The notes under the pieces: model-generated
What the model saw: the letters and a program-made list of their open reading frames with translations, nothing else
What the model was told of the DNA's origin: nothing
The model's database searches: none
Shown here: positions 2,973 to 31,379 of the stretch, piece by piece
How the letters are laid out: every line of letters starts with the position of its first letter
Numbering within the stretch: position 1 is the first letter of the stretch
Made by a program: the position numbers and the translations under genes
Assembly (NCBI RefSeq): GCF_003430825.1
Contig: NZ_CP024047.1
Span: forward strand, 124,001 to 188,000
DNA: 64,000 bases
From: Natrarchaeobaculum sulfurireducens
Lineage (GTDB): Archaea; Halobacteriota; Halobacteria; Halobacteriales; Natrialbaceae
Reading direction: 5' to 3'

Positions 2973-3045
2973 GTCCGGGTTGGGGTAGTGGTTATCCTTC
3001 AGCCTTGTGGAGGCTGAGACGCGGGTTCGATTCTCGCACCCGGAC
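2973..3045 (+). tRNA. tRNA-His (GTG)
   Basis: The cloverleaf is clear: an encoded G-1 at 2973 pairs with C73 at 3045 (the tRNA-His identity pair). The acceptor is 2974-2980 with 3038-3044, the anticodon stem is CAGCC/GGCTG with loop TTGTGGA (anticodon GTG), and the T-arm is GCGGGTTCGATTCTCGC. A T-run at 3047-3051 follows directly. Its 3' end is repeated three more times downstream. Confidence 0.97.
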
Positions 3046-3379
3046 CTTTTTACGACAAACGACGTGAGGAGTGAAAAAGCCGGAAGACGAGGCCGAACCA
3101 GACGAGTCGCGCGGAGCGAAGCGAACGCGTCTCGGCGAGGTTCGATTCTCGCACCCGGATGTTCTGCGGCGAACAACATCGTGAGCCGCGGAAGCCCCCA
3201 GAGAATCGAATCAGAGAGTGAAGTGACCGAAACGAACGGAACGACCGTGGTTCGGTTCTCGCACCCGGATGTTCTGCGGCGAACAACATCGTGAGCCGCG
3301 GAAGCCCCCAGAGAATCGAATCAGAGAGTGAAGTGACCGAAACGAACGGAACGACCGTGGTTCGATTCTCGCACCCGGA
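3024..3379 (+). repeat. Array of four copies of the tRNA-His 3' end, partly 110-bp tandem units
   Basis: The last 21 nt of tRNA-His (GGTTCGATTC..CACCCGGA) recur at 3139-3159, 3249-3269 (one change, A to G) and 3359-3379. Copies 2, 3 and 4 are 110 bp apart, and the intervening sequence of the two units (3161-3248 and 3271-3358) is identical. Each unit also carries GAGAATCGAA (near 3311-3320 and one period earlier), the inverse of TTCGATTCTC in the T-arm. The stretch between copies 1 and 2 is different and carries the GAACCAGACGAG module shared with the tRNA-Phe and tRNA-Val loci. Confidence 0.95.
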
Positions 3380-11794: not shown

Positions 11795-11973
11795 TAGGAG
11801 CGTTCGCTCACAGACCGTCCCTCGATCCGATCGCCATCCTGCTGGAGTGGTCGCTTCTCGGCAGCTTCGTGTCCACAGTACCCGACTTCTCGAGAGCGTA
11901 GCGAGCGGGACCGGGGACAGCTTGACCGTCGGTCGAGCGCTCCCGTTGGAATAGAGATCGTGTGGAAACCCCA
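11795..11973. other. Spacer between MITE-like repeat and tRNA-Phe tail copy
   Basis: No gene was recognised; the open frames here lack any family resemblance. The tRNA-Phe tail copy begins at its right edge. Confidence 0.4.
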
Positions 11974-12056
11974 TGCCACCTCCCGAATTTGAACCTCGCC
12001 GAGACAGTTGTGCTCGCTCATCTCCTTCGTTGTACGCACTGTAACTCGTCTGGTTC
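11974..12056 (-). repeat. tRNA-Phe 3'-end copy plus shared hairpin module
   Basis: TGCCACCTCCCGAATTTGAA at 11974-11993 (plus strand) is a diverged copy (two mismatches) of the tRNA-Phe 3' end at 12128-12147, displaced about 154 bp downstream of the gene. Reading the tRNA sense strand, the stretch before it begins TTGAACCAGACGAGT (inverse of 12044-12058) and ends GTCTCGGCGAGGTTC (inverse of 11991-12005). This is the same module as at tRNA-His and close to that at tRNA-Val. GAACC/GGTTC, AGAC/GTCT and AGTT/AACT can pair. Confidence 0.8.
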
Positions 12057-12127
12057 AACTCCGCTCGAGAGCAGGTCTGTGACTCACGAACGACTCGCTT
12101 CGCTCGTCGTCTTGTTCGTCACAAAAG

Positions 12128-12201
12128 TGCCGCCTCCCGGATTTGAACCGGGGACAGCTCGATCTTCAGTCGAGTGCTCTCCCAGTCTGAGCTAAGGCGG
12201 C
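12128..12201 (-). tRNA. tRNA-Phe (GAA)
   Basis: On the minus strand, acceptor GCCGCCT pairs with AGGCGGC, followed by discriminator A. The anticodon stem-loop is CTCGA-CTGAAGA-TCGAG (anticodon GAA), and the T-arm CCCCGGTTCAAATCCGGGA is intact. It is followed on its own strand by a TTTTGTGACGAAC trailer. Confidence 0.97.
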
Positions 12202-12410
12202 TCACCTACATCTCCGTCCATGGTATAAAAAAGGATTTCGAATCGGAACGCATCGCTCAGACGTCACGACCCGTCAGTTGTGGGGCATACGAAGACTCAA
12301 CAGCCGAGTAACGGATGGATACAGTTCGCGTAGCGTTCGGTGGCCTGTGCTCTGTTGGATTTACGGATATTCAAGACACCCTTTTCCGCGCTGGCGAGTA
12401 ACATCGTGTT
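12202..12410. other. Short intergenic region
   Basis: The promoter of tRNA-Phe should lie at its left end (GGTATAAAAAAGG, 12221-12233, a good TATA box on the minus strand). A plus-strand promoter for the DUF7344 gene should lie near TTACGGATATTC (12360-12371). Nothing else was seen. Confidence 0.5.
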
Positions 12411-12857
12411 ATGGGGGCACTTACCTCGAGCCAAGGTGAGCAAGAACTCTCGGCCGACACCATCCTCGAGTTACTTGCGAACCGCCGCCGCCGATACCTG
12501 TTGTACGCACTGCGTGGCCGTGAAGAGCCGATCGAACTGTCGAAACTCGCCGAGCGCGTCGCCGGCTGGGAACACGACGTCCCGCCCGACGAGGTGGCCC
12601 AAAACGAGTACAAGAGCGTCTACGTCTCGTCGGTCCAGTGTCACGTCCCGAAATTGGCCGATGCAGGCGTCGTCGACCACGACGAGGACAACCACACTGT
12701 CATCCTCGGCGATAACTTCGGCCAACTCGAGCCCTATCTCCGCGTCGTCGTCCGCGACGAACCCGAAAACTCGACGCTACACGCGGCCCTCGAAGCTGAA
12801 TCCGGCGACGGATTTTTCAGCCAGATCAGGGAGAACGTCGCCCGACTCAAGCACTGA
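12411..12857 (+). CDS. DUF7344 winged-helix regulator
   Basis: A 148-residue protein. The core LELLANRRRRYLLYAL ... ELSKLAERVAGWEHD ... YKSVYVSSVQCHVPKLADAG-VVDHDEDNHTVILG is the DUF7344 winged-helix pattern found in many copies in haloarchaea, probably DNA-binding. The C-terminal 45 residues (YLRVVVRDEPENS...) are not part of the core. It sits between two tRNA genes, with no operon partner. Confidence 0.8.
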   Translation: MGALTSSQGEQELSADTILELLANRRRRYLLYALRGREEPIELSKLAERVAGWEHDVPPDEVAQNEYKSVYVSSVQCHVPKLADAGVVDHDEDNHTVILGDNFGQLEPYLRVVVRDEPENSTLHAALEAESGDGFFSQIRENVARLKH

Positions 12858-12992
12858 CTACTCCGTGCAGTGGCAAGCGTCGGCGTGATAGTGACCGATT
12901 GGGGCCGACGAATCGTCTCGACGATTCGGTCATCACGCCCCTCGCTCGAGTCATTGCTCGAGACGGGTCTTGGGGCTCGACTCAGTGACGGT

Positions 12993-13067
12993 GTGGGCTC
13001 GGGCGGATTCGAACCTCGTCCAGACGGTCGGCCTCACTCCGTTCGGCCGCTGCGACTGGTCTGGTTC
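12993..13067 (-). repeat. tRNA-Val 3'-end copy plus shared hairpin module
   Basis: The plus-strand sequence GTGGGCTCGG-GCGGATTCGAACC at 12993-13015 exactly repeats the 3' end of tRNA-Val at 13121-13143, 128 bp away on the downstream side of the gene. On the tRNA sense strand the stretch between them contains GAACCAGACCAGT (inverse of 13055-13067) and ends GTCTGGACGAGGTTC (inverse of 13011-13025), matching the modules at tRNA-His and tRNA-Phe. A GGCC-11 nt-GGCC hairpin lies inside. Confidence 0.9.
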
Positions 13068-13121
13068 GAACCGTCTTCGGTCCACGTACCTGCTGCTCGC
13101 GGGGTTGCTCACAGCAGGAAG

Positions 13122-13195
13122 TGGGCTCGGGCGGATTCGAACCACCGACCTCGGCCTTGTAAAGGCCGCGTCATAACCAACTAGACCACGAGCCC
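13122..13195 (-). tRNA. tRNA-Val (TAC)
   Basis: On the minus strand, acceptor GGGCTCG pairs with CGAGCCC, followed by discriminator A. The anticodon stem-loop is CGGCC-TTTACAA-GGCCG (anticodon TAC), with T-arm GGTGGTTCGAATCCGCC. The trailer on its own strand is CTTCCTGCTG, without a long T-run. Confidence 0.97.
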
Positions 13196-31156: not shown

Positions 31157-31257
31157 GGGCCGGGCGCGATTTGAACACGCGGTCGGATGTGCTCGTTCAC
31201 GGCGTCGCCGTTTGCGACCGCGCTCTCGCTGCGCGAACCCTCCCTGCGTTCAAATCC
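31157..31257 (-). repeat. tRNA-Lys 3'-end copy with inverted T-arm motif
   Basis: The 25 nt at 31157-31181 (GGGCCGGGCGCG-ATTTGAACACGCG) are identical to 31307-31331 in the tRNA-Lys gene, 150 bp further along the gene's downstream side. GCGTTCAAATCC at 31246-31257 is an inverted near-copy of the T-arm GATTTGAAC. On the tRNA sense strand the inverted motif comes first and the direct copy ends the unit, as at the other loci. The distal copy, not the gene, is followed by CACTTTTACGACGAGC, a trailer resembling those right after tRNA-His and tRNA-Phe. Confidence 0.92.
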
Positions 31258-31305
31258 GTCCGGTTCCGAGACTCACCGCTCGCGGATCTGCTCGCGGCGA
31301 GAATA

Positions 31306-31379
<74 letters not shown>

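Follow-up and report, generated by a model that had tools for sequence, protein, structure and literature searches.

Gene-less hairpin cassettes behind haloarchaeal tRNA genes: a candidate family of site-specific mobile elements

Hairpin modules that lie directly behind tRNA genes in the window (the whole 64-kb stretch of DNA analyzed here) belong to a family of short units, each of which ends in a copy of its host gene's own 3' tail. The same kind of unit was found behind a protein gene, where in one case it brought a new 3' end with it. These units are probably gene-less cassettes of a new family that integrate at specific sites, exchange tails with their targets, depend on a recombinase acting in trans, and use a hairpin as attachment site. 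That the units are mobile is held with more confidence than this integration model as a whole.

Units in the window and in the source genome

An initial annotation of the window placed modules of a common frame behind the tRNA-His (3095-3143, + strand), tRNA-Phe (12056-11991, − strand), and tRNA-Val (13067-13011, − strand) genes. These coordinates were correct, and a pattern search of the 3.79-Mb genome for the start said to be shared by the modules, GAACCAGACNAGT, returned three occurrences, exactly at the His, Phe, and Val sites; the reversed control pattern returned none. The shared frame with its tRNA-specific tail was likewise real, but three loci proved to be a large underestimate. Forty-five tRNA genes were located in the source genome, and their surroundings were searched for copies of the last 22 nt of each gene. 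The automatic search gave a tail copy 65 to 180 nt downstream for about 20 of these genes, and two further degenerate copies (Arg and Glu tRNA genes) were found by eye, for a total of ~22 of ~45 genes. The same search found no upstream tail copies except where a duplicate tRNA gene is the neighbor, and many tRNA genes of this genome had no unit. The features of the window are listed in Table 1.

Table 1. Host genes, units, and tail copies in the 64-kb window
Feature	Positions	Strand	Remark
tRNA-His host gene	2974..3046	+	Tail T54-N73 at 3026-3045
His unit 1, HP1	3047..3078	+	Loop ..GACAAACGACGTGAG..
His unit 1, type A module	3095..3143	+	His unit of the initial annotation
His tail copy 1	3141..3159	+	
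His unit 2, HP1	3162..3193	+	
His unit 2, type B-like module	3202..3253	+	Inverted T-arm, hairpin, CGACCGTGG
His tail copy 2	3251..3269	+	One mismatch
His unit 3, HP1	3272..3303	+	Identical to that of unit 2
His unit 3, type B-like module	3312..3363	+	Identical to that of unit 2
His tail copy 3	3361..3379	+	End of array
tRNA-Phe host gene	12127..12201	-	Tail 12147-12128
Phe unit, HP1	12079..12122	-	
Phe unit, type A module	11989..12058	-	With inverted and direct T-arm
Phe tail copy	11974..11993	-	18/20 identical
tRNA-Val host gene	13121..13195	-	Tail 13141-13122
Val unit, HP1	13090..13117	-	
Val unit, type A module	13005..13072	-	88.4 bits, top model score in source genome; one of the seven sequences from which the model was built
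Val tail copy	12994..13013	-	Exact
tRNA-Lys(TTT) host gene	31306..31379	-	Host of a fourth unit, missing from the initial annotation
Lys unit	31168..31302	-	HP1 31302-31272; type B-like module 31257-31168; missing at this tRNA in a congener
Lys tail copy	31157..31175	-	Followed by older HP1 relic, 31155-31125

Read outward from the tRNA gene, a unit begins with a short T-rich stretch and a first hairpin (HP1) whose loop resembles GCGAACAAnnnCGTGAGC; after a spacer come an inverted host T-arm such as GGATTTGAACC, then a hairpin core, and finally a direct copy of the host tail. Two types of core were distinguished. In type A, a helix formed by the inverted T-arm and the T-arm portion of the tail copy encloses the stem NNAG-T-CG / CG-T-CTNN, which contains a conserved T.T mismatch, and inside this stem a variable apical hairpin; type B has the form TCAGGGAG-hairpin-CGACCGTGG. 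The stem pairing proposed initially was thus roughly right but not in its exact register. The GAACC/GGTTC pairing joins the end of the inverted T-arm to the T-arm within the tail copy, and the inner stem is better drawn as NNAG-T-CG...CG-T-CTNN, which pairs CCAG with CTGG at Val and CGAG with CTCG at His and Phe. In many units, HP1 and the core often have apices of one form, C-GA-NN-GNA-NN-GA-G; GNA triloops above tandem G.A pairs are unusually stable in single-stranded DNA. Downstream of the Phe unit, at positions 11910-11944 (− strand), lies a degenerate tRNA-Phe anticodon arm with the variable region, a partial tRNA that is longer than the tail copies. An Rfam scan of the window at curated score returned tRNA and rRNA matches alone, with no rtT match.

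Covariation of the stem, which the initial annotation had put forward as a check, was present in 117 distinct type A sequences from many genera, well above the controls: 97.4% of cells were paired, two-sided changes occurred in 14 of 20 pairs, and the covariation score was 0.433, compared with 0.150 for shuffled and ≤0.057 for slid sequences. The 117-sequence alignment was fitted to the model, and a plain alignment of seven sequences gave the same result. Unpaired core residues were conserved as well (alignment columns T76, 99%; C24, 97%; A25, 92%). Taken singly, the His and Phe modules folded no better than shuffled sequence (z of about −1), and their significance therefore comes from the family rather than from single folds. 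In the two inner module stems, G.T and A.C pairs were about equally frequent (15 versus 16), whereas the tRNA acceptor stems at the same loci had 25 and 0; this suggests selection on no particular RNA strand. The comparison is no more than suggestive, because decaying copies were counted too and because the outer T-arm helix had 44 G.T and 4 A.C pairs, mostly through one inherited variant. At tRNA-Ser loci of two genera (L505 and L506), the type A core was inverted relative to the tRNA and the tail copy, as would result if the hairpin were able to turn around between its two T-arm arms.

Distribution and target specificity

A covariance model built from seven modules of the source genome detected type A units in 282 of 292 sampled Halobacteria genomes, representing 72 of 77 genera, and in none of ~204 other Halobacteriota genomes. 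The type B pattern occurred in 166 of the 292 (reversed control, 0), and conservation of the cores spans 59 to 72 genera. When the genomes of 84,980 species were scanned, the named matches were to Halobacteria, bar two in metagenome-assembled genomes, which have no tRNA nearby and appear to be chance matches. The proposed association with tRNA genes was borne out: matches sit behind tRNA genes of nearly all isotypes, in sense orientation at nearly all loci.

Some matches of the model were orphans. Several adjoin a tRNA whose sequence contains masked bases or are placed at the end of a contig, others are arrays displaced by islands, and L149, L150, and L287 are relics without an assigned tRNA; L150 (source genome 269630-269702) is an intergenic type A core of 55 bits without tRNA or T-arm arms. 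Two arrays have been carried about 38 to 40 kb from their tRNA genes by integrated islands. One island of ~40 kb (source genome 3311024-3351312; L049, L157) lies between an intron-containing tRNA-Met gene and its displaced tail array, carries at its far end a gene for a tyrosine integrase, and is bounded by a repeat of ~13 nt (CCGTCAGGGCCCA), unlike the cassette boundary. The other, of ~38 kb (source genome 1121190-1159881; L159), lies between tRNA-Glu(CTC) and an old tail-HP1-module-tail array. At a locus in another genome (L504), an insert of ~5.5 kb separates tRNA-Glu(TTC) from a longer tail fragment and an old array.

Viral contigs and phage records held no genuine copies. The one type A pattern match in viral contigs was a chance match in a coding-like region, and among 92 matches to the HP1 pattern, those near a stem or GTTC were chance matches in coding-like sequence. 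Cores were not found at the ends of plasmid or island elements. Plasmid records yielded one real case, a cassette behind a tRNA-Gly gene (L525, NZ_CP031306.1 821671-824719) on an 828-kb secondary replicon of Natronorubrum bangense; this tRNA-Gly is absent from the listed annotation.

The tails are specific to their hosts. In 138 of 154 modules with a host, the tail copy lay within 3 mismatches of nt 54-73 of its own host tRNA, and hosts of other isotypes did so in 1% of comparisons. From nt 53 to nt 73, host and distal copy were 93 to 100% identical at each position, and at nt 51 and 74 identity was at background level; the repeat spans exactly tRNA nt 53-73. The inverted arm of type B also matched its own host better than other hosts (10.7 versus 8.9 of 13 positions). 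Similarity between cores was 0.85 for the same target and 0.73 for the same genome, with a baseline of 0.65. The target was a better predictor of core similarity than the genome, in keeping with target-specialized lineages. At tRNA-Leu(CAA), the duplicated stretch is 55 nt long and runs past the tRNA end, so tandem duplication fits this locus better than simple integration.

Units at tRNA-Leu(CAA) (+96 nt), tRNA-Lys(TTT), and tRNA-Ser(CGA) were present in one and absent from the other of the source genome and its congener, with syntenic flanks. At tRNA-Lys(TTT), an extra 151-nt unit stands between the tRNA and the sequence that directly follows the tRNA in the congener, a position that indicates insertion adjoining the gene. 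Repeat-mediated deletion has been reported in haloarchaea (PMC3119063), and precise loss between direct repeats could be the source of empty sites; because such exact loss is possible, the direction of change cannot always be told. Anatomy, distribution, tail boundaries, target-specific arms, and presence/absence differences between congeners are directly observed properties of the units.

A protein-gene target and the proposed mechanism

In Natronorubrum texcoconense, three type B units stand behind a protein gene (CGGTTCGARCCGGTCTGA) that ends CGG TTC GAA CCG GTC TGA. The gene, which was found in 118 of 121 genomes of the family, encodes a small protein with an OB fold, for which the Pfam match fell slightly short of the cut-off. 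Units occur at its 3' end in four Natrialbaceae genomes, with more than 20 orthologues empty. Besides N. texcoconense, a Natronorubrum congener and the congener of the source genome (with three units) carry them, and two genomes have units at paralogues. At one of these loci (L511), the repeat is exactly 15 nt long and ends at the stop codon, which parallels the end at N73 in tRNAs. At another (L520), the distal copy keeps the native end CCG GTA TAG, and the gene now ends CCG GTC TGA and is followed by the element. Since the native GTA-TAG has been replaced by GTC-TGA, the 3' end came with the element, leaving the protein sequence unchanged; gene conversion between paralogues could explain part of this case. 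Between the L511 and L520 elements, which belong to different genera, identity is 97.5%, with host genes at 82.9%. An orthologous pair within one genus shows the opposite, with 85.1% identity for the element and 94.1% for the gene. Both the non-tRNA target with its element-borne 3' end and the near-identity across genera were observed directly, and these findings argue more for a mobile element than for an RNA involved in the processing of tRNA. A reading of HP1 as simply the native tRNA trailer was rejected because HP1 occurs behind the protein gene, and a target duplication of fixed length was weakened both by the end of the repeat at N73 or the stop codon and by the L520 case.

In the proposed mechanism, the modules would be the right-hand ends of gene-less mobile cassettes of about 80 to 150 bp, laid out as 3' gene tail, HP1, spacer, inverted T-arm, and type A or type B hairpin core. 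A cassette would insert at the T-loop sequence GGTTCRA (target form GGTTCGAA), nearly always in a tRNA gene, with exchange inside the shared T-loop box at the G53/T54 boundary. Its tail would replace nt 54-73 and so rebuild a working gene, and the original tail, shifted downstream, would become the distal copy. Units may then accumulate beside the gene through further insertion or tandem duplication, with older ones decaying downstream. The exchange would be performed by a trans-acting enzyme, probably a tyrosine recombinase, for which the inverted-T-arm hairpin, as folded DNA or as a cruciform, may serve as attachment site. Neither a recombinase nor an excised form nor a relative with genes was found. 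An XerA-like recombinase was not supported as a discriminating partner, since XerA-like genes were present in 20 of 20 genomes tested, with and without units alike. A circle of ~100 bp is stiff, which would make ordinary circular excision awkward. As a tentative extension, haloarchaea may possess a cassette-recombination system of their own in which tRNA T-loops are the insertion sites, folded, target-matched DNA hairpins are the attachment sites, a host or widespread recombinase acts in trans, and the 3' ends of tRNA genes and some protein genes are repeatedly swapped.

The initial annotation had pointed to an unrecognized element family or an RNA structure. The element family was upheld, and an RNA made as part of the tRNA precursor is the less likely alternative given the units behind a protein gene, the lack of RNA-strand bias, and the gain or loss among congeners. 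A functional RNA, in which the tRNA transcript runs into the unit and the hairpins act in termination, in 3' processing, or as a T-arm decoy, would account for the deep conservation of unpaired core residues, the strong covariation, and the sense orientation at nearly all loci. We nevertheless consider it unlikely, since an identical kind of unit follows a protein gene, the module stems have G.T and A.C at equal frequency, unlike tRNA stems, numerous tRNA genes lack a unit, congeners differ, and the core is invertible between its arms at tRNA-Ser.

An origin by mutation without any recombinase is also improbable. Here, template switching (snap-back copying on a hairpin) would duplicate the tail and write the inverted T-arm, and quasi-palindrome correction would keep the arms matched. 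The fit of the inverted arm to the local target, protein gene included, the 55-nt duplication at tRNA-Leu(CAA), the identical tandem units, and the stems without strand bias are all in keeping with this. Snap-back copying explains target-matched arms, but it explains neither the non-native proximal end at L520 nor the near-identity of one element across genera, and core conservation over 59 to 72 genera also argues against it. Scars of proviruses or integrative elements, in which internal deletion would have spared the left and right attachment ends, are a very unlikely source. The same tRNA genes do receive large islands, which displace arrays (L157 and L159), and repeat-mediated deletion has been described in haloarchaea (PMC3119063). 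Against this stand the uniform size of the units, the failure to find cores on viruses or at plasmid and island ends, and the island seen here, whose core is another one, 13 nt long and located at the acceptor end.

Significance and comparison with known systems

A prior description of these units was not found in the openly licensed literature; subscription journals may hold one. If the integrating-cassette interpretation is right, nearly all haloarchaeal genomes carry several to a dozen or more unannotated mobile copies directly behind essential genes, and many tRNA 3' ends are element supplied. The units would offer a very compact natural site-specific insertion system for study and would explain partial tRNA duplications that are open to misreading as provirus scars. 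They would thereby bear on the annotation of archaeal tRNA-flanking regions and genomic islands.

Integron attC sites, which IntI recombines on their folded bottom strand, are non-coding hairpins with a variable apex and complementary arms that occur in arrays and have their boundary at a G|TT step. The units resemble them in the folded hairpin, the complementary arms, the variable apex, and the conserved asymmetric internal positions, as well as in insertion beside a fixed gene-proximal site, the formation of arrays, and the G|TT boundary. They do not have the attC box GTTRRRY: their right end is GTTCRAA, in which C56 is no purine and T, T, and C are present in 100% of the 117 sequences. Also unlike integrons, the units have neither IntI nor cassette genes, their target is the tRNA T-loop, and every unit has a 20-nt target-specific tail.

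In Escherichia coli, tyrT/rtT repeats stand in tandem behind a tRNA gene, each with the 3' tail of the tRNA. The units share this arrangement, but rtT is confined to one bacterial locus, has longer repeats, and has no known core hairpin family. With MITEs and REP elements, the units have in common that they are short, palindromic, and without genes. They differ in having a target-specific, gene-restoring tail and in lacking both fixed terminal inverted repeats and a short fixed target duplication.

The units also resemble tRNA-integrating elements and proviruses, of which SNJ2 is an example (PMC8371274), in that an element-borne 3' end restores the gene and the far boundary is a direct repeat of that 3' end. 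A repeat of this kind was found here as nt 53-73, with an element-supplied proximal copy in one protein-gene case (L520). In single units, just ~65 to 160 nt separate the gene from the copy, a stretch too short to encode an integrase. The units are 80 to 150 bp long, compared with kilobases for tRNA-integrating elements; they occupy about half of the tRNA genes, and their ends are hairpins that include an inverted T-arm.
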